A stretch of 64,000 nt of DNA from Syntrophaceae bacterium (GCA_013177825.1 JABLXX010000010.1:1-64000); one strand, 5' to 3'; positions 21,418 to 46,016 are shown, counted from the stretch's first letter. Numbers and translations: made by a program. Notes: a model not told the origin generated them from the letters alone.

Positions 21418-22398
21418 ATGTTGAACGGAAGAACAATTCTCATCACCGGGGGCACGGGTTCCTTTGGGAAAAAATGTGCTGAAATTATTCTGCAACGATA
21501 CAAACCTCGACGCCTCATCATTTTCAGCCGAGATGAACTCAAGCAGTTCGAAATGTCGCAAAATCCCGTATTCGCAAACAATACGTCCGTCAGCTTCTTC
21601 ATCGGAGACGTACGCGACAAGGAGAGACTGCACCGGGCCTTCCGGAACGTGGACTACGTGATCCACGCCGCCGCTCTAAAACAGGTTCCTGCGGCGGAAT
21701 ACAATCCCTTCGAGGCTGTAAAGACGAATATTCTCGGAGCCCAGAATATCATCAACGTGGCCATCGACCAGGGAGTGAAGCGGGTCATCGCCCTCAGCAC
21801 GGACAAAGCTGCGAACCCGATCAACCTCTATGGGGCGACGAAGCTCTGTTCGGACAAACTGTTCATTGCGGGGAACTCTTACGTTGGGATGGGTGATTCC
21901 TGCTTCAGTGTTGTCCGATACGGCAACGTCATTGGCAGCAGAGGAAGCGTGATCCCATTCTTCATCAAGTGCCGCAAGGAAGGATCCATTCCCGTGACGG
22001 ATCCTCGGATGACGCGCTTCTGGATCACGCTTGATCAGGGCGTTGATTTCGTTCTGGAAAGCCTGAATCGCATGGTTGGGGGGGAGATGTTCGTACCGAA
22101 GCTGCCAAGCATGAACATTATGGACCTTGTAAAAACCATCGCCCCGGACTGTCCCGTCCGGGTCATCGGCATCCGGCCGGGCGAAAAGCTCCATGAACTC
22201 ATGATACCCAGAGATGAGGCGCGGCGAACCCTGGAGTTTGATTCGCATTACCTTATCCAGCCTGACTTCCGGTTCTGGGAAAAAAGATATATATCCAACG
22301 GAGCAAAGACCCCGCCGGAGGACTTCGAGTACAGTTCCGACACGAACCCCTGGCGCCTGAGTGTGGAAGATATGAAAGAGATCATCCGTAGGCTATGA
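21418..22398 (+). CDS. pseB: UDP-GlcNAc 4,6-dehydratase (inverting), copy A
   Basis: A 326-residue short-chain dehydrogenase. ILITGGTGSFGKKC at 8-20 binds NADP; IFSRDELKQ, HAAALKQVPAAEYNP, ALSTDKAANPINLYGATK (T128-D-K130, Y138, K142 as catalytic set) and GSRGSVIPFF define PseB. It turns UDP-GlcNAc into the 4-keto-6-deoxy-L-arabino sugar, the first step to pseudaminic acid. Strong AAGGAG site. The stop overlaps the start of a pseC scar (ATGA), the same junction as in the intact pair at 43803. A second copy is at 42826, with most residues identical. Confidence 0.93.
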   Translation: MLNGRTILITGGTGSFGKKCAEIILQRYKPRRLIIFSRDELKQFEMSQNPVFANNTSVSFFIGDVRDKERLHRAFRNVDYVIHAAALKQVPAAEYNPFEAVKTNILGAQNIINVAIDQGVKRVIALSTDKAANPINLYGATKLCSDKLFIAGNSYVGMGDSCFSVVRYGNVIGSRGSVIPFFIKCRKEGSIPVTDPRMTRFWITLDQGVDFVLESLNRMVGGEMFVPKLPSMNIMDLVKTIAPDCPVRVIGIRPGEKLHELMIPRDEARRTLEFDSHYLIQPDFRFWEKRYISNGAKTPPEDFEYSSDTNPWRLSVEDMKEIIRRL

Positions 22399-22460
22399 TA
22401 CTCTACGGCAGGAAGATGGTGGACGATGACAACGTCCTGAATGTCATCAAGGCGCCGTGA
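22395..22460 (+). pseudogene. Remnant of pseC N terminus
   Basis: The ATGA junction after pseB opens a 21-codon frame starting MILYGRKMVDDDNVLNVIK, which lines up with the start of the intact PseC at 43803 (MIPYGRQCLDESDIKAVIE). It then stops; a shifted frame up to 22509 reads MTGPPDGRVERV, which recalls LTTGPKVAEFE of PseC. The other ~330 residues are missing and an aldo/keto reductase follows. This is a deletion scar of a former pseB-pseC pair. Confidence 0.65.
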
Positions 22461-22528
22461 TATGACCGGTCCACCAGATGGTCGTGTGGAACGCGTGCAG
22501 GTGACGTGAACCTGGCAATCGAATACCG

Positions 22529-23434
22529 ATGAAGAACTCTTTGGAAAGACTGATCCTCGGTACGGTGCAACTGGGGATGCCCTACGGGGTGGCAAACCGG
22601 AGCGGCCGGCCCGAAGCGGCCGATGCCAGGGCGATTATTGCCGCTGCCTGGGAAGGCGGGATCCGGACCTTCGACACGGCCCAGGGGTATGGAGACAGCG
22701 AGACCGTCCTTGGGTCGATCATCCACGATCTCGGTCTTGAGAACGAGATTCGTGTGATTACGAAACTGCATCCCGGAATCGACCACCGAAGGCGCGATGT
22801 TCTTGCCGAGGCAGTCGATCACAGCATGCGCTGCCTTCAAGTCCCTCGAATTCACGCCCTTCTCCTTCATCGCGAAGAGCATCTGGATCTGTTGAAAGAC
22901 GGTTTGGCGGAAAGCCTTTTTCACTTCGTCGCCGAGGGGAAAGTGGGCCGCATCGGCGTCTCGGTCTATTCTCCCGAAAGGGGCCTGGCGGCTTTGGACG
23001 AGGATGTGATCGACATCGTCCAGTTGCCGGCCAGCATCGTTGACCAGCGGGCCGCAAGGGCAGGCATCGACGCAAGGGCGAAAGAGAAAAACAAGGGAAT
23101 TCACATCCGCAGCATTTTCCTGCAGGGACTCCTCCTGCTGGATCCTATGGACGTGCCGCCAAGAGTTGCATTTTCCGTTCCCATTCTTGAGGAATATGGC
23201 CGGCTGATCGCCGGGTTCGACTTGACCAGACGCGAAGCGGCCATCGGATACATCAAGAAGCGCTTTCCGGAGTCCCCGGTTCTTTTCGGCGCGGAGACAA
23301 CGGAGCAGGTGCGGGAGAATATCCGTTCCTGGCATAGCGATGTACCGGAGGCGCTGATCGAAGCGGTTGAGAACCTCTTCCCGGAAGTGGACGAACGGGT
23401 CGTCAACCCATCCCAATGGAGGGACAGCGGATGA
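22529..23434 (+). CDS. Aldo/keto reductase family protein
   Basis: A 301-residue TIM-barrel oxidoreductase. LGTVQLGMPYGVAN at the N terminus, FDTAQGYGDSE with the Asp49/Tyr54 pair, ITKLHPG for the Lys and VGRIGVSVYSPE for the cofactor side match the aldo/keto reductase family seen in nonulosonate and O-antigen clusters. It probably reduces or oxidises a keto-sugar; the substrate is not evident. It stands where pseC would be expected, and its stop overlaps the next start (ATGA at 23431). Confidence 0.85.
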   Translation: MKNSLERLILGTVQLGMPYGVANRSGRPEAADARAIIAAAWEGGIRTFDTAQGYGDSETVLGSIIHDLGLENEIRVITKLHPGIDHRRRDVLAEAVDHSMRCLQVPRIHALLLHREEHLDLLKDGLAESLFHFVAEGKVGRIGVSVYSPERGLAALDEDVIDIVQLPASIVDQRAARAGIDARAKEKNKGIHIRSIFLQGLLLLDPMDVPPRVAFSVPILEEYGRLIAGFDLTRREAAIGYIKKRFPESPVLFGAETTEQVRENIRSWHSDVPEALIEAVENLFPEVDERVVNPSQWRDSG

Positions 23435-25515
23435 AAACAGTGGCCATTATTCAGGCCCGCATGAGTTCAAGCCGCCTGCCGGGGAAAGTCCTGGCGGACA
23501 TCCTGGGCAAGCCGCTGCTCTGGCATATGGTCGGACGCGTGGCACGGGCGCGGAGTATCGATCTGGTCGCCGTCGCCACATCGACCGACGGCGAAGACGA
23601 TGCAATCGAGGCCCTCTGCCGGCAGGAGCGGATCCCCTGCTTCCGCGGCAGTCTGGACGATGTCCTTGATCGCTTTTACAAGGCCGCACTTCATTACGAG
23701 GCGGATATCTGCGTCAGGCTGACAGCCGACTGTCCACTCATCGATCCGGAAATTGTGGACCGGGTCGTCGCCGCCTTCAGGGAGCAGGATCCGGATTACA
23801 TATCCAACGCCATCGAACCGACATTTCCCGACGGTCTCGATACGGAGGTCTTCCGGATGGAGGCCCTGACAGCCGCATGGACCGAGGCTACCCTCAAGTC
23901 GGAGCGGGAGCACGTGACGCCGTTCATCCGCAGCCACCCGGAACGGTTCCGGGTAGCGAAATTCAAAAACAGCCGGGATCTCTCCGCCTTGCGCTGGACG
24001 GTGGACGAGGAGCCCGACCTCGCCTTCGTGAGGAAAGTCTACGAGGCTCTGTATCCCGGGAATCCGTCTTTCTCCATGGACGACATCCTCACGCTTCTAA
24101 AGGAGAGGCCCGAACTGTCCGCGATGAACCGTCACATTTCCCGGAACGAGGGTTTTCGGAAATCCGTCATGGAAGACCGACCGGTGAATGGGACGGGTAA
24201 GACATTGACGAAATCGCTCGCCATGCAGGAGCGGGCGAAGAAGCGCATCCCGGGGATGACCCAGCTTCTTTCCAAGCGGCCCGATCTGTTCTCGATGGGT
24301 GTCTGGCCCGGTTATTTCAGCAGGGCCAGCGGTGTCGAGGTATGGGATCTGGACGGGAACCGGTACATCGACATGAGCATTGGAGGGATCGGGGCAAACG
24401 TCCTCGGCTATGCCGATCCCGATGTCGATGCCGCCGTCCTGACCGCCGTCCGCCAGGGAAGCTCTTCCTCCCTCAACTGCCCCGAAGAGGTTTTTCTTGC
24501 CGAGCTCCTGTGCGAACTTCATCCGTGGGCACAGAAAGTCCGTTTTGCCAGGACAGGCGGAGAGTCCATGACGGTTGCCGTACGCATAGCCCGGGCCGCC
24601 ACGGGACGCGACAAGGTCGCCTTCTGCGGATACCACGGCTGGCATGACTGGTACCTGGCTGCCAACGTGGGGACGGAAAATGCACTCGGAGAACACCTGC
24701 TGCCCGGACTCGATCCGGCGGGCGTCCCGAAGGTCCTGGCCGGGACCGCCATTCCTTTCCGCTACAATCAGCCGGAGGAAATCGCGGCGATCATGAGCGG
24801 GCACGGAAAGGATGTCGCGGCCATCATTATGGAGCCAATCCGCAATGACCGGCCGGATCCGGGATACTTCGACAAGATCAGGATGCTCGCGGACACGTAC
24901 GGTGCCGTTCTTATCATGGACGAGATATCGGCGGGCTTTCGCATGAACACCGGGGGCGCTCATCTCGAACTCGGCATCCGGCCCGACATCGCCGTTTTTT
25001 CCAAGGCGTTGGGCAATGGCTATCCCATCGGCGCCATCATCGGTCGGGAAACGGTCATGGACGCGGCCCAGAAGACCTTTATCAGCAGCACGTACTGGAC
25101 GGAGCGGATCGGGCCGGCGGCCGCCCTCGCCATGATTGCAAAGCACCGGCGCATGAATGCCGGAGCGCACCTGATGGCCGTCGGAGAGAAGATCCAGGCC
25201 GGGTGGAAGGCGATTACGGCCAGGCACGGCCTCTCCATTGACGTAGGCGGCATCCCGCCGTTGAGTCATTTCTCCTTTGCCGATTCCGGGCAGGCCGTGC
25301 TGAAAGCCCTTTTTGTGCAATGGATGCTGGAAAAGGGATACCTCGCCTCGACGTCCTTCTATTCCATGCTGGCCCATACGGAAGAGCATGTGGAGGGCTA
25401 TCTTGCCGCGGCGGATTCGATCTTTGAGCGAATCGCCGAGGTCTGCCGGGAAGGCAGGCCCGAGAAGTATCTGAAAGGGAATCCGGCCGTTGCCGGCTTC
25501 AAGCGGCTGAACTAA
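23431..25515 (+). CDS. Fusion: SpsF-type cytidylyltransferase + class III (GSA aminomutase-like) aminotransferase
   Basis: 694 residues from the ATG at 23431. Residues 1-245 are an SpsF/NeuA-type nucleotidyltransferase: AIIQARMSSSRLPGKVL, FRGSLDDVLDRFY, RLTADCPLIDPE and DGLDTEVF. Residues ~265-690 are a fold-type I, class III PLP enzyme of glutamate-1-semialdehyde aminomutase type: VWDLDGNRYIDMSIGG, ARTGGESMTVAVRIARAATG, GYHGWHDWY, IMDEISAGFR and the PLP lysine K525 in FSKALGNGYPIG. The first half would activate a sugar acid with CMP; the second would move an amino group on a sugar or side chain. Both genes exist separately in other clusters; here they are one frame. ATGA overlap with the reductase. 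Confidence 0.85.
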   Translation: MKTVAIIQARMSSSRLPGKVLADILGKPLLWHMVGRVARARSIDLVAVATSTDGEDDAIEALCRQERIPCFRGSLDDVLDRFYKAALHYEADICVRLTADCPLIDPEIVDRVVAAFREQDPDYISNAIEPTFPDGLDTEVFRMEALTAAWTEATLKSEREHVTPFIRSHPERFRVAKFKNSRDLSALRWTVDEEPDLAFVRKVYEALYPGNPSFSMDDILTLLKERPELSAMNRHISRNEGFRKSVMEDRPVNGTGKTLTKSLAMQERAKKRIPGMTQLLSKRPDLFSMGVWPGYFSRASGVEVWDLDGNRYIDMSIGGIGANVLGYADPDVDAAVLTAVRQGSSSSLNCPEEVFLAELLCELHPWAQKVRFARTGGESMTVAVRIARAATGRDKVAFCGYHGWHDWYLAANVGTENALGEHLLPGLDPAGVPKVLAGTAIPFRYNQPEEIAAIMSGHGKDVAAIIMEPIRNDRPDPGYFDKIRMLADTYGAVLIMDEISAGFRMNTGGAHLELGIRPDIAVFSKALGNGYPIGAIIGRETVMDAAQKTFISSTYWTERIGPAAALAMIAKHRRMNAGAHLMAVGEKIQAGWKAITARHGLSIDVGGIPPLSHFSFADSGQAVLKALFVQWMLEKGYLASTSFYSMLAHTEEHVEGYLAAADSIFERIAEVCREGRPEKYLKGNPAVAGFKRLN

Positions 25516-26618
25516 TGAACGTTGCGATTCGCACCGACGCCTCGATGGAGATCGGGACCGGCCACGTCATGCGCTGTCTGACGCTTGCCGGCGCCCTCAA
25601 GGCAGGGGGAGCGGACGTCACGTTTGTATGCCGGGAGATGCCGGGGAATCTCTGTTCATGGATCGAGAAAAAGGGCTTCCGGGTGTACCGGCTGACCGGG
25701 ATATCGGACGGCCTTTCTTCGGCTGTTCCTCCGGCCGGAACAGTTCATGCCGATTGGCTCGGGGCGGACTGGGAGACGGATTCAAGGCAGACGATCGACG
25801 CGCTTGTTTCTCCCGGGAATGGAACAGACTGGCTCATCGTCGATCACTACGCCCTTGACCGGCGCTGGGAGTCGTCACTGCGAAAGATCGTGAAGAGGAT
25901 CATGGTCGTCGACGATCTGGCGGATCGCCCTCATGACGCTGATCTCCTCCTCGACCAGAACTACTACATGAATACCGCCGGTCGTTATGAGCGACTGGTC
26001 CCTGAACATTGCCGCCTGCTGACCGGTCCAGGTTTTGCGCTCCTCAGAGACGAGTTTGCAAACGCGGTGTCGCCTGGAATCGAAAAAGATGGCTGTATCC
26101 GCCGCATTTTTGTTTTTTTCGGAGGAAGCGATCTGACAAACGAAACGGGAAACGTTCTGCAAGGCCTTTCCCTGCCTGGTGGCAGGTTGAATATTGAAAC
26201 AGATGTTGTAATCGGTCCCAACAACGCAAACAGGAGAACCATTGAAGCACTCGCCTCGGGAATGCCGTGCGTGCGTATCCATGAAGGTGTGGAGAACATG
26301 GCTCGTTTGATGGCCCTGGCCGATCTTGCCGTCGGCGCCGGCGGGATCACGACATGGGAGAGGTGTTGTGTCGGTTTGCCGGCCCTGGTAATTTTCACGG
26401 CATTCAACCAATTCGAGGCCATCCGGGACTTGGCGGCTGCAGGATGCATTCATCTCCTGGGTGAAAGCGGGCGGGTAACGCCTGAAAAGATCCGCGATAC
26501 GATTGAAGAACTTACCGGACATCCGGAACGGGTGCTGGAAATGGCCAGGAAAGGAAAGTCGCTGGTGGACGGCCTGGGGACGAAGCGTTGCCTGGAGGCC
26601 ATGCTTCAATCCTCATGA
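25515..26618 (+). CDS. pseG: PseG-like UDP-sugar hydrolase
   Basis: A 367-residue GT-B-like protein. AIRTDASMEIGTGHVMRCLTLA holds His17, the position of the catalytic histidine of Campylobacter PseG; VDDLADRPHDADLLLDQNYY, FVFFGGSDLTNET and AVGAGGITTWERCCVGLPAL are also typical. PseG removes UDP from the diacetamido-trideoxy-altrose intermediate before condensation with phosphoenolpyruvate. The start shares one base with the stop of the fusion gene. Length is longer than the ~275 of Campylobacter PseG, mainly in the middle and C-terminal part. Confidence 0.85.
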   Translation: MNVAIRTDASMEIGTGHVMRCLTLAGALKAGGADVTFVCREMPGNLCSWIEKKGFRVYRLTGISDGLSSAVPPAGTVHADWLGADWETDSRQTIDALVSPGNGTDWLIVDHYALDRRWESSLRKIVKRIMVVDDLADRPHDADLLLDQNYYMNTAGRYERLVPEHCRLLTGPGFALLRDEFANAVSPGIEKDGCIRRIFVFFGGSDLTNETGNVLQGLSLPGGRLNIETDVVIGPNNANRRTIEALASGMPCVRIHEGVENMARLMALADLAVGAGGITTWERCCVGLPALVIFTAFNQFEAIRDLAAAGCIHLLGESGRVTPEKIRDTIEELTGHPERVLEMARKGKSLVDGLGTKRCLEAMLQSS

Positions 26619-28186
26619 TGTCGTCAGGCCAGGGTGAATTTATGATGGACAAGAAGAACCGGCTGTTGCTGCTTTTCCCCAATCCCATCGCCACCATACC
26701 GGGCGGACTGACATACGTGGGCAAGCGCTTCAAGAGAAACGGATTCGATGTGAAAATACACATCAACACGTTTCGAAACTTCCGCTCCGTCGATCAGCTC
26801 CTGCAAGAGATCGTCCGGCCCTTCGCTCCCGATGTCGTCGGGCTCTCCTATGCTACGTTCAACGTTTTGGAGGTCTACCGGCTGCAGCGGATGCTCAGTG
26901 AAACGGGTTACTTTGTCATTGCCGGAGGCAATCACCCTACCATCTGCCCGGAGGAAGCCCTGCGCAACGGGGCCGATCTTGTCGTCCGCGGGGAAGGGGA
27001 GCTTGCCATCGACGACTTCTCTGCATGGTTCGGGGCCGGCCGGGACCCGGCCGGGCGGGCGGGGCTTCGCGGAACAAGCTACATCGACCCGGAGGGCCAT
27101 GTCGTCCACAACGCGAAGCCGCCGAGGCTGACGGACCTCGATGATTTGGGGGAAATGGACTTTTCCGCCATCGATCTGGATGAATTCCAGGTTGCCGACG
27201 GCTCAATCAAGGGTCTCAATGTCATCAGCTGCGGCAGGGGGTGCCCTTTCCAGTGCAGCTTCTGTTCCCACAGGGACTGGATGAAGCATGCGAAGCGAAG
27301 CACGGACAGTATTCTTGAAGAGATGGTCCGGCGGAACGAGGCACACGGCATCACGGACTTCTGGATGTCTGATGAGACCTTCACCGTCGACCGGGACCAC
27401 ATCCACGAATTCTGCGACAAATTCATCGCGGCGAAGCTTCCCTTCCGGTGGATGATGGGTACGAGGGCGACGAGTGTCGATGAGAAACTGCTCAAGAAAA
27501 TGATGCAGGCCGGTCTGACCCAGGTTACCTATGGTATCGAGAGCGCGAATGACGAGACTCTGAAAAAGACCAGGAAGGGATATACAGCCAGACAGGCCCT
27601 GGAGACGGTCGTCATGACGGGAAAGCTGAGGCTTCCCATGTACGTCAATCTTATGACCGGTTTTCCCTGGGAGACACCGGACCACGTCGAAGACGACGTC
27701 CGGTTCATCAAGGCCGTCGAAAAGTATGTGAACTGCTTTCAGCTGTACGGCGCGGTCATTCCGTACCCGGATACGCCGATCTACGAGGACTACCATGAGA
27801 AAGAGGGATTCACGGACTTCTGGCTGCAGGAGAAGTTCCAGAACGCAGGCATGGTCATCTATCAGAACGTAGCGAATCCTTACAAGGTGAGCACCTATTT
27901 TCAGCGCAACCTCTACGACGACACGTATGTGGCGGAGGATTATTTTTTCCGCTTCACACCGGAGTACAAACGCGCCGTTGCCAGGATGGGGCTTCTCATC
28001 GGCCGCAAGGCGATCGAGGCGCAGAGCCTCTCCCGCATCCGGCGGCACGGGAAGTATGCACTGGGTTGGGCGTCTCATGCGCTCTACCGGTTGAATCCGC
28101 GACTCGAGCAAAGGATCGTGGGATCACTGGTCAAGGTCAATCGGGTGCATGACAGCCGATTGACGGGTAAATTCATCAAAAAGTGA
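26615..28186 (+). CDS. B12-binding-domain radical SAM protein
   Basis: About 523 residues. An N-terminal cobalamin-like Rossmann domain (PDVVGLSYATFNVLE, VIAGGNHPTICPEEAL, VVRGEGE) precedes a radical-SAM barrel with C210-P-F-Q-C214-S-F-C217 for the 4Fe-4S cluster, followed by FWMSDETFTVDRD and YGIESANDETLKKTRKGYT. Such proteins methylate unactivated carbons or rearrange sugars and lipids. The ATG at 26615 overlaps the pseG stop (ATGA), the usual junction in this operon; ATG 26642 is an alternative start. One of three radical-SAM genes in block A. Confidence 0.85.
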   Translation: MMSSGQGEFMMDKKNRLLLLFPNPIATIPGGLTYVGKRFKRNGFDVKIHINTFRNFRSVDQLLQEIVRPFAPDVVGLSYATFNVLEVYRLQRMLSETGYFVIAGGNHPTICPEEALRNGADLVVRGEGELAIDDFSAWFGAGRDPAGRAGLRGTSYIDPEGHVVHNAKPPRLTDLDDLGEMDFSAIDLDEFQVADGSIKGLNVISCGRGCPFQCSFCSHRDWMKHAKRSTDSILEEMVRRNEAHGITDFWMSDETFTVDRDHIHEFCDKFIAAKLPFRWMMGTRATSVDEKLLKKMMQAGLTQVTYGIESANDETLKKTRKGYTARQALETVVMTGKLRLPMYVNLMTGFPWETPDHVEDDVRFIKAVEKYVNCFQLYGAVIPYPDTPIYEDYHEKEGFTDFWLQEKFQNAGMVIYQNVANPYKVSTYFQRNLYDDTYVAEDYFFRFTPEYKRAVARMGLLIGRKAIEAQSLSRIRRHGKYALGWASHALYRLNPRLEQRIVGSLVKVNRVHDSRLTGKFIKK

Positions 28187-29331
28187 CCGGCATCATGGAT
28201 TGCCCTTCCATTCTCATTGCCTGCCACGACGCAGGCGCCGCCAACGCCCTGTCCAGGCTTGTCGGGCCCTGGAAAAGCGAGGGAATGTTCGTTCAGGCGG
28301 TCACGATGCAATACGCCTCTGAGGTTTTCTCGAGGTCCGGAATCCGGCCGGATCGTGCTTATGATGCGGATATGACGAACGACCAGGTCTGTGAGGTACT
28401 CGATCAGATAGAGCCGGATGCTGTTCTGCTGGGGTCCAGCCTCGATTCGCAGGGGGAGCGGCTTCTGGCGGCGGAGGCACGAAAGCGTGGGATCCGCACG
28501 GCAGGACTGGTGGACTGGTGGTCCAATTTCGGGCAGCGGTTTTCCGCGCCCGGGACCCGGGATCTCCGGTTCCTGCCGGACATCGTTGCCGTTCCCGATG
28601 ACGACGCGAGAGAGGGGTGCATTGCGGAAGGCATTCCAGCCGAATCCATCCGCATCACCGGGAATCCCTACTGGGAGGACCTGATCGGGATTTCCCGTTC
28701 GCTCTGGGAGTTCACCCGGAACAACGTGCGGACGTGTCTCAACGTTCCTCCGGAGAGCCGGCTTATCCTGATCGTATCCGGCAACATCCGGAATCTTGGA
28801 CTCGATCTGGGCTACGACGAAGGCGATTTGTTCGGGGCGATTGCCTCGCTATCCAGGAGCAACGGTATCCGCCGGCCGGTCTGCTGGGCCGTCAAGCCGC
28901 ACCCGCGGGAATCCCTGGCCGATTTACGTGACCTCATGGCGGCTTCCGGACTCCGGGAGCCGCTGATTCTCGCAGATACGGAACCCCTTGACGCAGTCTG
29001 CGCTGCTGACGGCGTTTTCGGCATGTGTTCCAGCCTTCTGTTCGAAGCGGCCCTTCTGGGGAAGAGAGTGGTCTCTTTTCAACCGAACCTCAACCGGGAC
29101 AAGCTCGAATATTTCCGAATATTCAGACACATCGGGATTCCCGTTCTCACGGATACCGATCCGGTCCGTGATGTGCTTGCCACCCTTGCCGGCGACCAGG
29201 GGCAGGTTCCGGATTTGAGCCGGCTGCCCCGACCGATCGGCAGGGGGACTGCCGGGATGAATCTGAAACAGATCCTGATGGGTGACTGGATGACCAGGAG
29301 GAGCCATGGACAACCGCTTCCGTCTTGTTGA
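28183..29331 (+). CDS. GT-B-fold protein (CDP-glycerol transferase/2-epimerase-like), function unknown
   Basis: About 382 residues from a GTG at 28183 overlapping the previous stop (GTGA); ATG 28195 is the alternative. ILIACHDAGAANALSRL at the start, CWAVKPHPRESLADL and DGVFGMCSSLLFEAALLGKRVVSFQ resemble the C-terminal nucleotide site of GT-B enzymes such as UDP-GlcNAc 2-epimerase and CDP-glycerol transferases. The gene at 49021 in block B is of the same type, so both blocks carry one. It may be the sugar-acid transferase; I do not recognise a named family. Confidence 0.6.
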   Translation: MTGIMDCPSILIACHDAGAANALSRLVGPWKSEGMFVQAVTMQYASEVFSRSGIRPDRAYDADMTNDQVCEVLDQIEPDAVLLGSSLDSQGERLLAAEARKRGIRTAGLVDWWSNFGQRFSAPGTRDLRFLPDIVAVPDDDAREGCIAEGIPAESIRITGNPYWEDLIGISRSLWEFTRNNVRTCLNVPPESRLILIVSGNIRNLGLDLGYDEGDLFGAIASLSRSNGIRRPVCWAVKPHPRESLADLRDLMAASGLREPLILADTEPLDAVCAADGVFGMCSSLLFEAALLGKRVVSFQPNLNRDKLEYFRIFRHIGIPVLTDTDPVRDVLATLAGDQGQVPDLSRLPRPIGRGTAGMNLKQILMGDWMTRRSHGQPLPSC

Positions 29332-30196
29332 CGACCCGGTGTACGGATATCTGCGCGTCGATCCCATTCCGACCCAGGAGGAAGTCGACCGCTACTACAG
29401 GGAAGAATTTTATTCCGCTCTTCCCCATTTCAACGACTCGGAACTGGCGGTTCAGGAAGAAGAAAAGGCGTTCTTCGACAGCCGCTGGGAGGCGATCTGC
29501 AGGATCTGCGAACGCCACTTCGGTCGGCTGGCCGGTCTTTCGGTCTTCGACATCGGCTTCGGATTTGCGCAGGCCCTGCTGTATTTCCGTACCCGGGGGA
29601 TGAACGTCAGCGGTCTGGAGCCGGCTCCGGAGGGCGTGGCCTATGCGCGGGACCGGGGCCTCGATGTTTTTCAGGCAAACATCGAGGATATTGAATGCGT
29701 GGGGGAACGGCGCTTTGATGTTGTGACGATCATCAATGTGCTCGAGCACTTGAGGCAGCCCGCAGAGACCCTCCTGAACGTGCGCAACAGGCTTCTTCAT
29801 GGGGACGGCCTGCTCATCGTCGATGTAGCCAACGAGTTCAACGACTTTCAGACGGCCGCCGACGCGGAGTTCCAGCTCGGACAGTGGTGGCTGTGCCCGC
29901 CGAACCACATCAACTACTTCTCGGGATCGAGCCTGTGCCGCCTCCTGGAAGCTTGTGGATACCGGATCGTCCATCGGGAGGCCTCCTTTCCGATGGAGAT
30001 GTTTCTCCTGATGGGGGACGTATATGTCGGAGACGAAGGCGTGGGCAAAGCCTGTCATCAGAAAAGGGTGTCCTTCGAGCACGTCCTTCGGAAGAGAGAC
30101 AGGGGGGAGAAACTGTCCCGGTTCTATCAGGCCCTTGCCGATCTGGATCTCGGGCGGCAGATTGTTGTTTTCGCCACACCGGGGCGTTCCGAATGA
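29306..30196 (+). CDS. Class I SAM-dependent methyltransferase
   Basis: A 296-residue protein with an N-terminal YYREEFYSAL region and motif I VFDIGFGFAQALLYF (about residues 89-104), SGLEPAPEGVAYAR, VVTIINVLEHLRQP and LLIVDVANEFNDF, a Methyltransf_23 arrangement. The late block WWLCPPNHINYFS is typical of small-molecule or sugar methyltransferases of polysaccharide clusters. AGGAGG lies just before the ATG, which overlaps the upstream gene by 26 bp. Confidence 0.85.
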   Translation: MDNRFRLVDDPVYGYLRVDPIPTQEEVDRYYREEFYSALPHFNDSELAVQEEEKAFFDSRWEAICRICERHFGRLAGLSVFDIGFGFAQALLYFRTRGMNVSGLEPAPEGVAYARDRGLDVFQANIEDIECVGERRFDVVTIINVLEHLRQPAETLLNVRNRLLHGDGLLIVDVANEFNDFQTAADAEFQLGQWWLCPPNHINYFSGSSLCRLLEACGYRIVHREASFPMEMFLLMGDVYVGDEGVGKACHQKRVSFEHVLRKRDRGEKLSRFYQALADLDLGRQIVVFATPGRSE

Positions 30197-30234
30197 AGTC
30201 CGGCCGGACGATGAAACGTTGAGGATTGTATCAA

Positions 30235-31302
30235 ATGGAATTAATTCATCTTTCACGCTATTTGACTGTGGAGCAGCCGAGGTTGCTTCCCTTTGCGGAA
30301 TTGAGGAAAATGCCCCCTCTTTTCTTCACACAGGATCTGAATCTCGATGGTGAGGAAGAAAACCGGGAGTATGCGATAGAGCTCGCATCCCGGGGATTGG
30401 CGGTCGTTCCGATCCGCCGGCGGCCCCCGAAGTCGAACTACTTGGATAGAAACACCTTTCCGCGTCGCGTCATTCTTGAAATGACGAGCCGATGCAATTT
30501 CTTCTGCCGCATGTGTCCGCAACAGAACCTGACACGACCCCGGATGGACATGCCGGGCGAGGCCTGCTGCAGGGTCATCGACGAAATCGATGCCCATGGC
30601 ATAGAAGGCCTCTGGCTCTATCATCTGGGCGAATCCCTTCTTCACCCCGAGTTCAGGGACAATATCCGCCACATCAGCACCAAAAAGAACCTTGGGGTGA
30701 TCTGGATGAGCACGAACGGACAATATTTTACCGAAGAAAACATCCGCTGTGTTCTCGATTCAAACATCGACTACATCAATTTCTCGGCCCATGCGGTAAC
30801 GGAAGAGACGTATAAGACCGTCGCGTCCCAGGGTGATTTCCATATCGTGCAGGGGAATCTCGAAACCTTCTATCGCCTGAAAGGGAGCGAGGCGCTTCCC
30901 AGGAAGCCGTATCTCCATTGTCAGATGATCGAGCAGGAGACGACGGCCCATGAGGTCGATGCCTTTATCGCCCGGCATTACCAGAGGGGTGAAATCGTCA
31001 GCGTCAACATGCTTGAATACGTGAACCTGCCGAACAACAGATACGGACTGCGCCAGCGGGAAAGAAAGCCCCTGACTTCGTGTCTGAGGGTGTCGCGGAA
31101 CGACTGTTTCATCTGTTCGAACGGCCACGTCACGCTGTGTGACGCCGCCTACAACGGCGAGCTGTACCTCGGAAATATCCATGAATCCTCTCTCCATGAC
31201 ATCTGGAACGGGGAGCAGCGCCGTCGGATTCTTGACCTCAACAGACAGGGGAGGATGGCGGAAATCCCCTTCTGCAGGGATTGTACGGATTATGACATAT
31301 GA
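30235..31302 (+). CDS. Radical SAM protein with C-terminal SPASM-type domain
   Basis: 355 residues from ATG 30235 with GAGG 10 bases before it. ILEMTSRCNFFCRMCPQQN supplies C87-x3-C91-x2-C94. The C-terminal part has CLRVSRNDCFICSNGHVTLC, DAAYNGELYLGNI and FCRDCTDY, the extra cysteines of a SPASM/twitch domain that holds further Fe-S clusters. Related proteins modify peptides, sugars (for example deaminating dehydratases) or act on alcohols. Its stop overlaps the next start (ATGA at 31299). Confidence 0.85.
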   Translation: MELIHLSRYLTVEQPRLLPFAELRKMPPLFFTQDLNLDGEEENREYAIELASRGLAVVPIRRRPPKSNYLDRNTFPRRVILEMTSRCNFFCRMCPQQNLTRPRMDMPGEACCRVIDEIDAHGIEGLWLYHLGESLLHPEFRDNIRHISTKKNLGVIWMSTNGQYFTEENIRCVLDSNIDYINFSAHAVTEETYKTVASQGDFHIVQGNLETFYRLKGSEALPRKPYLHCQMIEQETTAHEVDAFIARHYQRGEIVSVNMLEYVNLPNNRYGLRQRERKPLTSCLRVSRNDCFICSNGHVTLCDAAYNGELYLGNIHESSLHDIWNGEQRRRILDLNRQGRMAEIPFCRDCTDYDI

Positions 31303-31802
31303 AGGACCGGATCCGTCTTGCCTTTTTTTCCGAGACCCATGTCGGCAGGACGTTTGAATGGGTCAGGGAACCGGATTTCCAGAGGCTCTTCCTCATGCGG
31401 CAGGCGCCGACCTGGGAGGGGCACCTGGATTATTTCCACAGGGTTCTGGCTGACGAAGGTCAGCGGGTATATGCCATTGTGGAGGAAGACCGGCATATCG
31501 GCAACGGCGGCATCAAGAACATCCGTATGGACGATCATTCGGGAGAGCTCTGGGTTTATATCGGCGATCACAAAGACCGGGGAAAAGGCGCCGGATCCAG
31601 GGCTACGGAACTCCTGCTGCAGGAAGGATTCCGGAATCTGGGGCTGCGGACCGTCTATGTCCATGTTGCCGATTTCAATGAACAGGCCGTTCGCATGTAC
31701 CGGAGGCTGGGGTTTACCGAATCGAGATTGCTGGGAAACGATGAGGAATGGATGGACCGGGGCTGTACCGTAATCCGAATGGAAGCGAGGAACGATTCAT
31801 GA
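31299..31802 (+). CDS. GNAT N-acetyltransferase (PseH-like candidate)
   Basis: A 167-residue GNAT protein: FEWVREPDFQRLFLMRQ at the start, VEEDRHIGNGGIKNI, IGDHKDRGKGAGSRATELLL (acetyl-CoA pyrophosphate loop) and ADFNEQAVRMYRRLGFTES. Position in a pseB-G-I operon makes it the likely enzyme that N-acetylates the 4-amino sugar (the PseH step). The GNAT at 50120 in block B could do the same. ATGA overlap at both ends. Confidence 0.85.
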   Translation: MKDRIRLAFFSETHVGRTFEWVREPDFQRLFLMRQAPTWEGHLDYFHRVLADEGQRVYAIVEEDRHIGNGGIKNIRMDDHSGELWVYIGDHKDRGKGAGSRATELLLQEGFRNLGLRTVYVHVADFNEQAVRMYRRLGFTESRLLGNDEEWMDRGCTVIRMEARNDS

Positions 31803-32578
31803 AAGTCTCCATGATGCAACCATCCTTCATGCCGTGGCAGGGTTTCTTTGATCTGATCCGCCAGGTGGATTGCTTCATCCTGCTGGACGATTTTCAATTT
31901 TCCGTCCAGAGCTATCACCAGCGCAACCGCCTGTTTGTCAACCCGGGCCAGATCGACTGGTATTCGGTTCCGGTAGTGAAGTCCGTATCGTTTCAGGCAC
32001 CGCTGAATAAAGCAAAGATCGACGAGAAGGGGCCATGGCGGAAGAAGATGTGGAAGCGGGTCGAGCAGAACTATCGAAAGACGCCCCATTACAACGATCT
32101 GGCAGGCTCCCTGGAGAAATGGCTTCTGCAGCCCTGGGACAACCTGGCGGATCAGAACATGGCCTTCATTCACTGGGTCTGCGATCTCCTTGGTTACACT
32201 CCGGAGTTTCGAACGAGTTCCAGACACCCCGGAGCCGAAGAACGTTCCCTCCGGGTCGTCGAACTACTGAAGTGGGCAGGCGGAGATTCCTATTATTCGG
32301 CCCGCGGCTCTTTCGAATACATGAAAGAAGATGGCGTATTCCCGCTACCGGACATCCCCGTTTACTTTCAGCATTTCATTCCCCGACCCTATGTCCAGGT
32401 TGGCTCTCCCGGGCAATTTGTCCCCTATCTGTCTATCGTGGACGCCCTAATGAACGTGGGGCTCGCCGGAACCAGGGATCTGATCGAAAACAGCAATGTG
32501 GGATGGTCGAAATGGGACGACATGGTCTCCGTCACAGCCAATGATTACTCCTCTGCAACTGAGCCGACGGATGTCTGA
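31799..32578 (+). CDS. WbqC-like family protein
   Basis: 259 residues from the ATG at 31799 overlapping the GNAT stop. KVSMMQPSFMPWQGFFDLIRQ, FILLDDFQFSVQSYHQRN and WLTxPV-like WYSVPVVK are typical of the WbqC family (PF08889) found in O-antigen and nonulosonate loci. The biochemical role of the family is not settled; a ligase- or transferase-type role in modification of sugars has been proposed from context. It lies between the acetyltransferase and pseI. Confidence 0.85.
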   Translation: MKVSMMQPSFMPWQGFFDLIRQVDCFILLDDFQFSVQSYHQRNRLFVNPGQIDWYSVPVVKSVSFQAPLNKAKIDEKGPWRKKMWKRVEQNYRKTPHYNDLAGSLEKWLLQPWDNLADQNMAFIHWVCDLLGYTPEFRTSSRHPGAEERSLRVVELLKWAGGDSYYSARGSFEYMKEDGVFPLPDIPVYFQHFIPRPYVQVGSPGQFVPYLSIVDALMNVGLAGTRDLIENSNVGWSKWDDMVSVTANDYSSATEPTDV

Positions 32579-32591
32579 GGGGGCATCGGAA

Positions 32592-33632
32592 ATGAATATC
32601 GCCGGAAGAAATATCGGACCGGGGCATCCCGTTTACATCATCGCGGAGATGTCCGGAAATCATAATGGAGATTATCACACGGCCGAGAAAATCGTACGTG
32701 CAGCAAAAGACAGTGGGGCGGATGCCGTAAAGCTCCAGACCTACACGGCGGACACCATCACGATCGATTGCGACAGCGGCCTGTTCCGGGTCGGCTCCGG
32801 GAACCTCTGGTCGGGGCGAACCCTCTATGACCTGTATCAGGAAGCCTACACACCCTGGGAATGGCAACCCCGGCTGAAGGCACTGGCGGAAGAACTCGGG
32901 ATGCACTGCTTCAGTTCACCTTTCGACGCCTCTGCCGCTGACTTCCTTGAGCAGGTGGATGTTCCCGCGTTCAAGATTGCATCCTGCGAGCTCGTCGATC
33001 TCCCACTGATCGAGTATGTCGCCCGGAAGGGGAAGCCGATGATCCTGTCGACGGGAATGGCCGGCCGGGAAGAGATCGCGGATGCCCTGAATGCTGTTCG
33101 GAATGCAGGCATGCCCCATGTCGCCCTGCTGAAATGCACGACAGCGTATCCATCGCCTCCGGAAGAAATGAACCTGCTCACCATCCGGCAGATGGCGGAG
33201 GATTTCGGCGTTCCCGTCGGCCTGTCGGATCATTCCCTGGGCATCGAAATCCCCGTGGCCGCCGTGGCTGTCGGTGCCTGCATCATCGAGAAGCATCTGG
33301 TTTTGGACCGTTCGTCCGGGGGGCCCGATCATGCCTTTTCGCTCGAGCCGCACGAGTTCAAGGCCATGGTCGATGCCGTCCGGACTGTCGAAAAGGCTCT
33401 GGGACGCGTCCAATATGGGCCCGGGGACCAGGAGGAGGCCAGTCTGGCATATCGCCGGTCGCTGTTTGTCGTCCACGATGTGAAGAAGGGCGAGGTATTT
33501 ACTCCGGAGAACGTCCGATCCATCCGTCCCGGCCATGGCCTTCCGCCGAAGTATCTGCCGGATGTCCTGGGAAAAAAGGCCGCGAAGGACCTCACAAGAG
33601 GAACCCCGCTGTGTTGGGAAATGATTCGTTGA
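32592..33632 (+). CDS. pseI: Pseudaminic/sialic acid synthase family protein (NeuB/PseI) with SAF domain
   Basis: 346 residues from the ATG at 32592 (GAGGGGG upstream; ATG 32571 also in frame). The TIM barrel shows VYIIAEMSGNHNGDYHTA, KLQTYTADTITID, CFSSPFDASAADFLE, ILSTGMA, LLKCTTAYPSPPEEMNL and GLSDHSLGIEIPVAAVAVGA; EKHLVLDRS..GPDHAFSLEP is closer to PseI than to NeuB. The C-terminal SAF (antifreeze-like) domain is RRSLFVVHDVKKGEVFTPEN. It condenses a 6-deoxy-diacetamido hexose with phosphoenolpyruvate to the nine-carbon acid. Confidence 0.88.
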   Translation: MNIAGRNIGPGHPVYIIAEMSGNHNGDYHTAEKIVRAAKDSGADAVKLQTYTADTITIDCDSGLFRVGSGNLWSGRTLYDLYQEAYTPWEWQPRLKALAEELGMHCFSSPFDASAADFLEQVDVPAFKIASCELVDLPLIEYVARKGKPMILSTGMAGREEIADALNAVRNAGMPHVALLKCTTAYPSPPEEMNLLTIRQMAEDFGVPVGLSDHSLGIEIPVAAVAVGACIIEKHLVLDRSSGGPDHAFSLEPHEFKAMVDAVRTVEKALGRVQYGPGDQEEASLAYRRSLFVVHDVKKGEVFTPENVRSIRPGHGLPPKYLPDVLGKKAAKDLTRGTPLCWEMIR

Positions 33633-33690
33633 TCCAATGGAAGCGGGATCCGTTGAACATCTGTTCTAAAGATGAAAGCAGCAGGAATCC

Positions 33691-35091
33691 ATGAATATTC
33701 TCGTCATGAATGTGTCTTTGAGACCCCAGTCTCCCGTAAAGCTTTTCCCAATCGGATTGGGATTTGTCACGACGGCGATGAAGAGGGCCGGCTTTGAATT
33801 CGATCTGATCGATATCGACGCTCACAGGTATTCGGACAGCGAGGTGAGAAAGAGAATACAAAAGAAGAAATACGACGTTGTCTGCATGGGATGCATTGTC
33901 ACTGGCTATAGAATAGTGAAATCATTATGCGATGTTATAAAGGAAATTCATCCGCATGCCACGATTGTCGTCGGCAACTCGGTTGCAACCTCCGTCGCTG
34001 AAACACTTCTGAAAAAAACCCGGGCCGACATTGCCGTGATGTCGGAAGGAGATGAAACCATTGTAGAATTGCTTGGATTGCTGGCGGGAAACGATTCCCT
34101 CGATGGTGTCAAGGGGATCAGCTTTCTCCGGGACGGAACGTTTGTCAGAAATCCATCCAGACCTTTGATCAAAGACATCTCATCGCTGCCGTTCATCGAT
34201 TTCTCTCCTTATGACATCGATATTTACATCGACGCTTCCAAACAGCACGCGAATGATCCGCTGCCCATGAAAAGGGACGACGTGAGGGCGATGCCCGTGA
34301 ACACGGCAAGAGGCTGCATAGCGAATTGTACATTCTGTTACCATGTCTTTAAAAATTCCCCGTATCGATTCAGGAATCCTGATTCCATCGTTGCAGAGAT
34401 AAGGGAATTAATCTCCAGATACTCGATTAATTACGTTCTGTTCTGGGATGAGCTGACATTCTTTTCGAAGAAGCAGACCATTGCCCTGGTTGACAGGCTG
34501 CTCGCGGAAGACCTCGATATCTACTGGGCCGGCAGTTGCCGGGGAAATCTCTTCGATTGTGAAGAAGATCTGGAAATCATGGAAAAAATGAAAAAATCAG
34601 GATGTGTCAGCATGGCGTATTCACTGGAATCGTCGAACCCCTCGATTCTAAAGATGATGAACAAGCATGTGTCGGCCGAACAATTCAGTACTCAAACCGG
34701 TTTGTTTCATCGTGCCGGCATTCCTGTCGGAACAAGCATCGTGATGGGCTACCCGCAAGAGACGCCCGAGACCATTAGAAGGACGTTTGAGTGCTGTATT
34801 GAAAACAGCATATATCCCTCCGCCGGTTATCTCCTTCCCCAGCCTGGTTCCAAAATGTACGATTACGCCGTTGCCAACGGCTTTATCGGGGATGAGGAGG
34901 AATACCTCCTGAAGATGGGCGACCGGCAGGACCTCCGCCTCAACATGACCTCCATGAGTGACGAGGAATTTGAAATGTACGTCATGGAGGGGCTCAAACG
35001 GTGCAATTCCCTGCTGGAAGTCGGTCTCGACGAGCGATCTCTCATCAAAACAAAGCATTATCGCGCCGGGGGAAAGGTGCTGAGGGCCTGA
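33691..35091 (+). CDS. B12-binding-domain radical SAM protein
   Basis: A 466-residue protein. N-terminal cobalamin-type fold (LFPIGLGFVTTAMKRAGFEF, VVCMGCIVTGYRIVK, ATIVVGNSVATSVAET, MSEGDET) and a radical-SAM barrel with C209-I-A-N-C213-T-F-C216, FWDELTFFSKKQT, MAYSLESSNPSILKMMNKHV and GYLLPQPGSKMYDYA. It differs clearly from the similar protein at 26615. Codon use is somewhat AT-richer than its neighbours. Last gene of block A; 58 bases separate it from pseI. The reaction is unknown; methylation or rearrangement of the sugar acid is possible. Confidence 0.85.
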   Translation: MNILVMNVSLRPQSPVKLFPIGLGFVTTAMKRAGFEFDLIDIDAHRYSDSEVRKRIQKKKYDVVCMGCIVTGYRIVKSLCDVIKEIHPHATIVVGNSVATSVAETLLKKTRADIAVMSEGDETIVELLGLLAGNDSLDGVKGISFLRDGTFVRNPSRPLIKDISSLPFIDFSPYDIDIYIDASKQHANDPLPMKRDDVRAMPVNTARGCIANCTFCYHVFKNSPYRFRNPDSIVAEIRELISRYSINYVLFWDELTFFSKKQTIALVDRLLAEDLDIYWAGSCRGNLFDCEEDLEIMEKMKKSGCVSMAYSLESSNPSILKMMNKHVSAEQFSTQTGLFHRAGIPVGTSIVMGYPQETPETIRRTFECCIENSIYPSAGYLLPQPGSKMYDYAVANGFIGDEEEYLLKMGDRQDLRLNMTSMSDEEFEMYVMEGLKRCNSLLEVGLDERSLIKTKHYRAGGKVLRA

Positions 35092-42825: not shown

Positions 42826-43806
42826 ATGCTGAATGACAAAACAATTTTGATTACGGGCGGTACGGGATCGTTTGGCTGCAAGTGCACAGAGATAATCCTG
42901 AAGCGGTACAGACCGAAACGTCTCATTATCTTCAGCCGTGATGAGCTGAAACAATATGAAATGGCCCAAGTCTTCTCCGAGAAGAATTATCCAAGCATAC
43001 GATATTTTCTAGGGGATGTCCGTGATCAGGAGCGTTTGCACAGGGCCTTCCGGGGAGTGGATTACGTTATACATGCGGCAGCCCTGAAACAGGTCCCGGC
43101 AGCAGAGTACAATCCCTTCGAAGCGATCAAAACCAACATTCTGGGGGCGCAGAACATCATCAATGTCGCCATTGATCAGGGGGTACAACGGGTCATTGCG
43201 CTCAGCACGGACAAGGCAGCCAATCCGATCAACCTCTATGGCGCAACGAAACTCTGTTCGGATAAGCTCTTCATTGCCGGAAACGCGTATGTTGGACACG
43301 GGCAGACAATCTTCAGCGTTGTCAGGTACGGAAACGTAGCAGGAAGCCGGGGGAGCGTGATTCCCTTTTTCCTGCAGTGCAGGTCGAAAGGGCTTCTGCC
43401 GATTACGGATCCCAGGATGACCCGTTTCTGGATAACCCTGGAACAGGGAGTGGACTTCGTTCTCTCCTGCCTGGAACGCATGGTTGGGGGAGAGCTCTTT
43501 GTCCCCAAATTGCCGAGCATGAACATCATGACCCTGGCAAAAGCCATCGCACCGGATTGCCCCATTGAAATCATAGGCATCCGGCCTGGAGAAAAAGTCC
43601 ATGAAGTTATGATCCCGCGGGATGAGGCGATTCGCAGCATTGAATTTGAACATTACTACATCATTCAGCCGGATTTCCGTTTCTGGTCGCGCCGATATAA
43701 CGGCCAGGGGGGAGAAACGCTTCCAGAGGATTTCGAATATAACTCCGGCACGAACGCCTGGCAGCTGTCCATCGAAGAAATGCGCGAGATAATTGAACGA
43801 TTATGA
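42826..43806 (+). CDS. pseB: UDP-GlcNAc 4,6-dehydratase (inverting), copy B
   Basis: A 326-residue paralogue of the protein at 21418, aligned without gaps over most of its length (GGTGSFGCKCTEIILKRYRP, ALSTDKAANPINLYGATK with K130, Y138, K142). AGGAAG precedes the ATG. It is followed by intact pseC with the ATGA junction (43803-43806), so this copy keeps the ancestral order. Two dehydratases in one island may serve two sugars or reflect a block duplication. Confidence 0.93.
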   Translation: MLNDKTILITGGTGSFGCKCTEIILKRYRPKRLIIFSRDELKQYEMAQVFSEKNYPSIRYFLGDVRDQERLHRAFRGVDYVIHAAALKQVPAAEYNPFEAIKTNILGAQNIINVAIDQGVQRVIALSTDKAANPINLYGATKLCSDKLFIAGNAYVGHGQTIFSVVRYGNVAGSRGSVIPFFLQCRSKGLLPITDPRMTRFWITLEQGVDFVLSCLERMVGGELFVPKLPSMNIMTLAKAIAPDCPIEIIGIRPGEKVHEVMIPRDEAIRSIEFEHYYIIQPDFRFWSRRYNGQGGETLPEDFEYNSGTNAWQLSIEEMREIIERL

Positions 43807-44933
43807 TTCCTTACGGCCGGCAATGCCTTGATGAATCCGACATCAAGGCAGTCATAGAAGTTCTTCGTTCCGATTGGCTGACCACGGGACCCAAGGTGGC
43901 CGAGTTCGAATCGAGCTTTGCCCGTTGTGCAGGTGTAAAACATGCGGTGGCAGTCAGCAGCGGAACGGCAGCCCTCCATGCAGCCATGTATGCACTCGGC
44001 ATCGGGCCTGGTGATGAAGTCATCGTCCCGGCCATGACATTTGCCGCTTCGGCCAATTGTGTCGTATTCCAGGGTGGGACACCGGTCTTCGCCGATGTGG
44101 ACCGTGAGACGCTCCTGATCGATCCCGGAAGCGTGGAGGAGAGAATCACTCCACGGACCAGGGCGATCGTTCCTGTCGACTATGCGGGGCAACCGTGCGA
44201 TTACGATACCCTGCGCGACATCGCACACCGCCGTGGCCTGCAACTGGTGGATGACGCCTGCCATGCCCTGGGGGCGGCCTACAAGGGCCGGCCAGTAGGG
44301 TCCCTGACCGAACTGAGTTGCTTCAGTTTTCATCCCGTCAAGCATATTACCACCGGTGAGGGAGGCATGATCACCACGGACGATCCTGAACTGGCCCGGC
44401 GCATGCGAACCTTCCGGAATCACGGCATCACGACGGACCATCGAGAGCGGCAGAACACGGGGGCTTGGTTCTACGAGATGGTCGACCTGGGTTTCAATTA
44501 CCGGCTGACGGATTTTCAATGCGCCCTCGGAATCAGCCAGCTTTCAAAACTGGCCGGTTGGATAGACCGGCGCAGGCGGATTGCGAGCCGTTATGACGAG
44601 GCTCTGGCCTCTGTCCCCGGAATCCGCCCGCTTTCTGTGCGCCCCGATGTCGTCCACGCATATCACCTCTATGTTGTGCGCCTGATGGGAGATCGCGATG
44701 AGGTCTTTAGGAGGCTTCGAGAGAGGGGGATCGGTGTGAATGTCCATTACATTCCGGTTCACCTGCACCCCTACTACCGGAAGCACTTCGGTACCGGTCC
44801 CGGCTTATGTCCCGTTGCCGAGGAGGCTTACGGACAGATTCTTTCTCTTCCCCTCTATCCGGGAATGACTGCCGAGGATGTAGAACGGGTCATTGGTGAT
44901 CTTAAGGAGGTTACCGGCTGCTGTGGCACCTGA
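43803..44933 (+). CDS. pseC: UDP-4-amino-4,6-dideoxy-L-AltNAc aminotransferase
   Basis: A 376-residue DegT/DnrJ/EryC1 enzyme. MIPYGRQCLDESDIKAVIEV, SDWLTTGPKVAEFES, AVSSGTAALHAAMYALGIGP, FADVDRETLLIDP, VDDACHALGAAYKG and K180 in FSFHPVKHITTGEGG match PseC. It transfers an amino group to the product of PseB. This is the only intact pseC of the window; block A has just a stub. It overlaps pseB by 4 bp. Confidence 0.9.
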   Translation: MIPYGRQCLDESDIKAVIEVLRSDWLTTGPKVAEFESSFARCAGVKHAVAVSSGTAALHAAMYALGIGPGDEVIVPAMTFAASANCVVFQGGTPVFADVDRETLLIDPGSVEERITPRTRAIVPVDYAGQPCDYDTLRDIAHRRGLQLVDDACHALGAAYKGRPVGSLTELSCFSFHPVKHITTGEGGMITTDDPELARRMRTFRNHGITTDHRERQNTGAWFYEMVDLGFNYRLTDFQCALGISQLSKLAGWIDRRRRIASRYDEALASVPGIRPLSVRPDVVHAYHLYVVRLMGDRDEVFRRLRERGIGVNVHYIPVHLHPYYRKHFGTGPGLCPVAEEAYGQILSLPLYPGMTAEDVERVIGDLKEVTGCCGT

Positions 44934-45187
44934 CGGAGATTTGGGAGAGCGTCTGTCCTTCGATGATCGTTATTGGCTGTTCATCCGACATCGAAGATAG
45001 CAGCATTAGCATTTGTTTTGATTACTTTTCTTACGGAAACACCGCGGCGGGTAGAGGGGAATGTCGATGTCTGGCCGGGGTCACTGTATGGCTCCTGGAG
45101 AAGCCGATTGGATGAAACATTACCTTACTGTGTGTGAACCTGTTGTGAATCCAATCCTATGGCCTGAATGGCAGTGAGGGATAGACC
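44934..45187. repeat. Intergenic region with two 8-bp inverted repeats
   Basis: No gene seen. CTTCGATG (44958-44965) / CATCGAAG (44989-44996) and GATTGGAT (45106-45113) / ATCCAATC (45149-45156) could form stems; the first may end the pseB-pseC transcript. GAGGGA before 45188 is the next ribosome site. Confidence 0.4.
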
Positions 45188-45874: not shown

Positions 45875-46016
45875 CATGAAAAGCGTTACCATTCATGTTG
45901 TCAATCTAGTTCGACATGCGAAAATCTGTTAAAGACACTAGAATATTTGATTTGTTTGAGGTTGTACCCCCCTGAGTCGGGATCTTATTTCTTAATGGGT
46001 CGAGGATGTTTTACAG

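Follow-up and report, generated by a model that had tools for sequence, protein, structure and literature searches.

In a 64,000-nucleotide stretch of a Syntrophaceae bacterium genome (GCA_013177825.1 JABLXX010000010.1:1-64000; hereafter, the window), one gene of a pseudaminic acid (pse) locus joins an SpsF-type cytidylyltransferase to a class III PLP aminotransferase. The fusion is a recurring variant of a gene arrangement that is widespread among pse loci. We consider it probable (roughly 0.75) that the arrangement carries out an extra step in the pse pathway, in which the aminotransferase is partnered by an oxidoreductase.

A fused gene within a pse locus

The fusion is the 694-aa product of a single open frame without a stop (window 23431–25515, plus strand), with the cytidylyltransferase N-terminal and the class III domain behind it. 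The ATG at 23431 is preceded, seven bases upstream, by the Shine-Dalgarno-like motif GGAGGG (23418–23423); an alternative ATG at 23416 overlaps that motif. The aldo/keto reductase (AKR) gene ends inside the start of the fusion gene, and the start of pseG overlaps its stop as TAATG, so that AKR, fusion and pseG are likely to be coupled in translation, judging from these overlaps. Proteins of full length with this domain order are also found, for instance, in L055 (aminotransferase domains 71% identical), L113, L117, L119, L125, L143, and L160, and one on an isolate plasmid (NZ_CP022416) matches at 47% identity over 100% of the query. Since such full-length proteins recur, a chance or assembly join is ruled out as the origin, and the fusion is real and recurrent.

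Table 1. Features of the window around the fusion gene, with the evidence for each assignment.
Feature	Position	Strand	Evidence
PseB (UDP-GlcNAc 4,6-dehydratase, inverting), first copy	21418..22398	+	TIGR03589 506 bits, cut-off 408
Aldo/keto reductase (AKR), proposed oxidoreductase partner	22529..23434	+	PF00248 87 bits
Fusion: SpsF-type cytidylyltransferase domain	23431..24135	+	residues 1–235; PF02348 119.3 bits, cut-off 22.6
Fusion: low-confidence interdomain linker	24136..24210	+	pLDDT <50, residues 244–281
Fusion: class III PLP aminotransferase domain	24211..25515	+	residues ~262–694; PF00202 Aminotran_3 139.6 bits, cut-off 30.5
PseG	25515..26618	+	TIGR03590 295 bits, cut-off 154
B12-binding radical SAM protein	26588-28186		inside the pse run
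382-aa protein	28183-29331		inside the pse run; no Pfam/NCBIfam match at E 0.001
SPASM radical SAM protein	30226-31302		inside the pse run
PseH-like GNAT acetyltransferase	31299..31802	+	TIGR03585 59.8 bits, under cut-off 93.1
PseI, pseudaminic acid synthase	32496..33632	+	TIGR03586 486 bits, cut-off 340
Second B12-binding radical SAM protein	33691-35091
PseB, second copy	42826..43806	+	TIGR03589 514 bits
PseC (DegT family)	43803..44933	+	TIGR03588 476.5 bits, cut-off 423.5

The surrounding run (21418–35091) is a CMP-Pse locus in that PseB, PseG, and PseI all score above curated cut-offs within it. Its order is pseB, AKR, fusion, pseG, B12/radical SAM, the 382-aa protein, a methyltransferase, SPASM radical SAM, PseH-like GNAT, a 276-aa ORF (no NCBIfam match), pseI, and the second B12/radical SAM gene. 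PseI is present as a single copy in the genome (E<=1e-90). The first pseB is followed directly by the AKR gene rather than by pseC, and no PseC or DegT gene lies within the run; the PseC at 43803–44933 is the only one above cut-off in the 4.24 Mb genome.

That pseC belongs to a second pse-like run (42826–49017), which comprises pseB, pseC, a methyltransferase, a CTP_transf_3 gene (46017), a Gfo/Idh oxidoreductase (46721), and a further DegT aminotransferase (47611). This run also juxtaposes cytidylyltransferase, oxidoreductase, and aminotransferase, the last being of the DegT type. Between the two runs, a 532-aa fusion of a Gfo/Idh oxidoreductase and a hexapeptide acyltransferase (38973–40571) adjoins a DegT gene at 37801.

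Domain architecture and relation to HemL

The original prediction described a continuous frame holding an SpsF domain and a class III PLP domain with its PLP lysine at K525. All of this is borne out: the frame is open, both domains pass their Pfam cut-offs, and residue 525 is the lysine of an FSKALGNGYP motif. The lysine is invariant, as K525 across 17 fused relatives and as K271 (domain numbering) across 29 aligned aminotransferase domains. The N-terminal domain matches a cytidylyltransferase of known structure (6oew_A, residues 1–229, E 7e-37). SpsF takes the place of PseF in pse loci with and without the aminotransferase, including the minimal loci L181 and L184, and by this reading of sequence and position the fused domain is a putative PseF-type CMP-sugar synthetase for a nonulosonic acid.

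The second half of an AlphaFold model of the fusion (mean pLDDT 82.6, pTM 0.57) aligns with class III structures at Z ~38–41 over 340–395 residues. FumI, PctV, and GSA aminomutases are nearly tied as structural matches (the lead of FumI over HemL structures is small, Z 40.7 vs 39.1), and GenB3/GenB4 also appear among the Foldseek matches. FumI, GenB3/GenB4, and PctV, which count among the nearest folds, are class III enzymes that act on amino polyols, aminoglycosides, and cyclic ketones. These modelled neighbours are compatible with an amino or keto polyol as substrate of the class III domain but do not settle the matter.

The same matches raise the question of whether the domain is simply a GSA aminomutase (HemL) for heme synthesis that stands here by accident. 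HemL proteins are among its nearest solved homologues (E ~1e-47), and the best-scoring NCBIfam models, HemL (TIGR00713) and PRK06209 (NF004856), share with it the class III fold and the PLP lysine; the nearest NCBIfam names are those of GSA aminomutase. The domain nevertheless falls under both curated cut-offs, with 189–191 bits against HemL (cut-off 527.3) and 238 bits against PRK06209 (cut-off 486), and the genome encodes a separate HemL at C1:735803 that scores 612 bits. A separate HemL above cut-off is found in 25 of 26 genomes that carry the aminotransferase family. Phylogenetically, the 38 family members sampled group together (support 97/91), apart from the genome's own HemL and from four other class III enzymes placed in the same tree. 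Where HemL has an NSPVR segment, the family has an SK motif with a lysine that does not vary among 29 relatives. On these grounds we reject HemL identity and regard the heme explanation as highly improbable; the exclusive relation to HemL that was named beforehand as fatal to the original prediction is contradicted by the separate enzymes and the separate clade.

Distribution and gene fusions

Relatives of the aminotransferase domain occur in 61 of 395 genomes surveyed from the same phylum, and a scan of named genomes added 80 loci, spread over many bacterial phyla and one Methanoregula genome. PseI or PseB lies within 12 kb in 81 of the 120 loci analysed. The original prediction had called class III enzymes unusual in nonulosonate synthesis, a view that has to be given up: they recur in pse loci, Aeromonas included (PMC7874193). 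Phage records yielded distant class III matches only.

SpsF and the aminotransferase are fused in 23 of the 81 pse-associated loci, and fusion status switches at least 11 times on the aminotransferase tree (ingroup rows only), with gain and loss indistinguishable. Other joins are also seen: L167 encodes Gfo/Idh, SpsF, and aminotransferase as a single 1028-aa chain, in L122 a 566-aa SpsF-AKR protein stands beside an SpsF-aminotransferase protein, and in L086 an SDR oxidoreductase is fused to the aminotransferase. Fusions to the CMP-transferase are what would be expected if the aminotransferase and oxidoreductase act around the activation step of a nonulosonic acid.

Several relatives lie in other settings. 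Those at L118:7656-10040, L147:8702-11287, and L156:8966-11302 stand outside pse loci and are extended at the N-terminus by a long stretch that resembles an amidohydrolase on visual inspection, so the family has further roles. The neighbourhoods of the alphaproteobacterial relatives in L132, L133, L134, L135, L140, and L154, several of them marine, are not pse loci. On a 434-kb plasmid of the halophilic archaeon Halorussus aquaticus (L195:997-12127), genes for Gfo/Idh, an SpsF-like protein, and a class III aminotransferase have a NeuB-family synthase, a DegT enzyme, and SDR genes as neighbours.

An oxidoreductase partner

An AKR or Gfo/Idh oxidoreductase was found in 48 of 53 well-flanked pse loci with the aminotransferase (AKR in 33, Gfo/Idh in 17, both in 2) and in 0 of 20 pseI loci without it, the latter drawn from the same phylum and searched at the same thresholds (Fisher p ~1e-13, a value that ignores the relatedness of loci). 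Restricting the first group to the same phylum leaves the contrast intact at 21/23 vs 0/20 (p ~3e-10, again ignoring relatedness), and looser thresholds give 49/53 vs 1/20. The AKR and Gfo/Idh profile models behind these counts were built from aminotransferase-positive loci, which biases the search towards that subfamily in those loci. Under the strict threshold two same-phylum loci are exceptions: L061 has a weaker AKR, and L086 its fused SDR. AKR and Gfo/Idh replace one another at least eight times on the aminotransferase tree (ingroup rows only), as expected of interchangeable partners.

Two other candidate companions were considered. SpsF was rejected as an aminotransferase-specific partner, since pse loci that lack the aminotransferase have it as well. 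Acyltransferases, considered as a source of acylation for a third amine, gave GNAT matches for 10 of 55 extra ORFs in aminotransferase loci and ~1 of 29 in controls, a difference of limited weight because PseH seems in some loci to form part of a long PseG protein and so escaped the count. Separately, a xylose-isomerase-like TIM barrel protein (AP_endonuc_2) lies near pseI at L055:10673-11437, with relatives in L057, L099, and L105; at least these four loci show no PseG match. Five such ORFs were recorded in aminotransferase loci and none is listed in the controls.

Related loci and an Aeromonas flagellin sugar

The closest described counterpart is the group I flagellar glycosylation island of Aeromonas, pseB-pseC-AKR-pseF-class III aminotransferase-pseG...pseI, which has the same genes as the window in nearly the same order and differs in that they are unfused and that pseC lies within the run (PMC7874193). 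All group I A. hydrophila strains fall into the subgroups with AKR and class III aminotransferase (IA, 27; IB, 2), and that study assigns no function to either enzyme (PMC7874193). In our own survey, A. rivipollensis locus L173 reads pseB-pseC-AKR-SpsF-aminotransferase...pseI. A Vibrio pse cluster with an SpsF-AKR protein has also been published: in Vibrio B9-25K2, oxidoreductase and SpsF-type cytidylyltransferase form a single protein beside pseB, pseC, and pseG, and the excerpt of the account that we cite mentions no class III aminotransferase (PMC7371886). Plasmid pSMR1-1 of Pseudosulfitobacter pseudonitzschiae (NZ_CP022416) carries pseB, pseC, AKR, GNAT, a fused SpsF-aminotransferase (677 aa), pseG, and pseI; unlike the window it has pseC at the locus, and its fusion is annotated only as a class III-fold PLP enzyme.

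A chemical precedent exists in the 8-amino-Kdo (Kdo8N) of Shewanella, where an oxidoreductase and a PLP aminotransferase, KdnA/KdnB, swap a side-chain hydroxyl for an amine before CMP activation by KdsB; the sugar acid differs from the one considered here and so, apparently, do the enzyme families. The occurrence of Kdo8N is documented (PMC6357163); a literature search on the genes of its pathway brought up almost entirely unrelated work on kinetoplasts. The proposed module would resemble the Kdo8N pathway by analogy of mechanism.

The nitrogen rule requires an odd number of nitrogens in any even-electron ion whose mass is even. The flagellin of A. hydrophila AH-1 carries a single nonulosonic-acid-like sugar of 403 Da, with an oxonium ion at m/z 404 and fragments (342, 355, 373) shifted by one unit from those of a known Pse derivative, for which the authors proposed C19H32O9 (PMC4691044). 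The even m/z of 404 implies an odd nitrogen count, which casts doubt on this formula. One composition that computes to 403.16 is a triamino core carrying two acetyl groups and one glyceroyl group; the data are low-resolution, this is not the only composition that fits, and an odd mass would likewise result from an acetamidino group. Strain AH-3, of group II, has an even-mass derivative of 376 Da. From the distribution of subgroups IA and IB within the species, AH-1 presumably belongs to one of them and carries the module.

Alternative reactions

The absence of pseC from the pseB-AKR-fusion stretch suggests that the class III domain might replace PseC non-homologously and aminate C4 of the PseB product, UDP-4-keto-6-deoxy-L-AltNAc. 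The fusion is no PseC by membership, its domain being Aminotran_3 rather than the DegT fold of TIGR03588 (cut-off 423.5 bits). The locus also lacks PseC in a minority of other cases (L060, L087, L092, L113, L139, L148), and two genomes with the family and pseB, G015 (L060; one contig, 99% complete) and G147 (L087; 100% complete), have no PseC above cut-off genome-wide. Against replacement, PseB and PseC both lie within 12 kb in 37 of the 53 well-flanked loci, 25 of the 33 genomes that carry the family encode a PseC above cut-off, mostly at the locus itself, and the window's genome has its own. The PseC-less cases are scattered across the aminotransferase tree, and replacement leaves the oxidoreductase unexplained because PseB already yields a ketone. 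We therefore reject the class III enzyme as a general substitute for PseC, with which it coexists in most loci, and keep replacement as an unlikely reading for the minority without PseC; coexistence instead implies a further amination.

Two other readings were weighed. The pair may run in reverse, the aminotransferase removing an amine and the oxidoreductase reducing the ketone to a hydroxyl, for a net exchange of amine for hydroxyl or an epimerisation. The best structural match, FumI, carries the annotation aminopentol aminotransferase and acts as a deaminase, and AKR and Gfo/Idh enzymes are often reductases. To remove a C4 amine that PseC has just put on would be wasteful, and the odd mass of the AH-1 sugar favours an odd nitrogen count, to which the loss of one nitrogen would also lead; we judge the reverse direction improbable. 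Alternatively, the pair could make or modify an N-acyl substituent, or a small amino-acid precursor, that decorates pseudaminic acid and leaves its carbon chain alone. Class III enzymes, judging from the PDB matches, commonly use amino and keto acids, and methyl- and acyltransferases are common in aminotransferase loci. The fusions, however, join the CMP-transferase and not acyltransferases, and the oxidoreductase likewise sits with SpsF, which makes a role in decoration rather unlikely.

Proposed pathway and implications

The reading that we prefer is a further amination on top of the known pathway. PseB, PseC, PseH, PseG, and PseI would make pseudaminic acid, with PseC supplied in this genome by the second pseBC pair 20 kb downstream. 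The AKR, or Gfo/Idh elsewhere, both of the NAD(P) type, would then act on a free hydroxyl, most likely that at C8, and oxidise this position of the nonulosonic acid to a ketone; the class III domain would transaminate the ketone through PLP at K525 to give a triamino nonulosonic acid; and the fused SpsF domain would turn this into the CMP-sugar. That the pair exchanges a hydroxyl for an amine on the sugar acid has, on the sequence evidence, about even odds, and placement of the amine at C8 is tentative. We infer the direction, the substrate, the stage (free acid or CMP-sugar), the position (C8, not C4), and catalysis by both domains.

The original prediction had proposed an additional amino transfer on the sugar acid or its precursor, for example on the side chain. 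The additional step is upheld by the coexistence with PseC, the specific oxidoreductase partner, and the fusion of aminotransferase and oxidoreductase each to the CMP-transferase, while amination of the side chain stays a conjecture. The prediction had overlooked the oxidoreductase partner and the matter of PseC. Our literature search returned no relevant paper on triamino or triacetamido nonulosonic acids, and the function of the module is not described in the literature searched.

More broadly, it is possible, at somewhat less than even odds, that these loci represent a branch of nonulosonic acid biosynthesis that is widespread but has gone undescribed, leading to triamino sugar acids of the 8-amino-pseudaminic acid type. 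Its enzymes would be a swappable AKR or Gfo/Idh dehydrogenase, a class III aminotransferase, and a CMP-synthetase, frequently joined in bi- or trifunctional proteins, and its products would be odd-mass flagellin and envelope sugars such as the 403-Da sugar of AH-1. The bi- and trifunctional proteins are ready enzymes for in vitro study of the step. Pseudaminic acids decorate the flagella and envelopes of many bacteria; if a large share of the annotated pse loci lead to a triamino sugar acid, the sugar predicted from their genes would be wrong, and an unexplained published flagellin sugar would gain an explanation.
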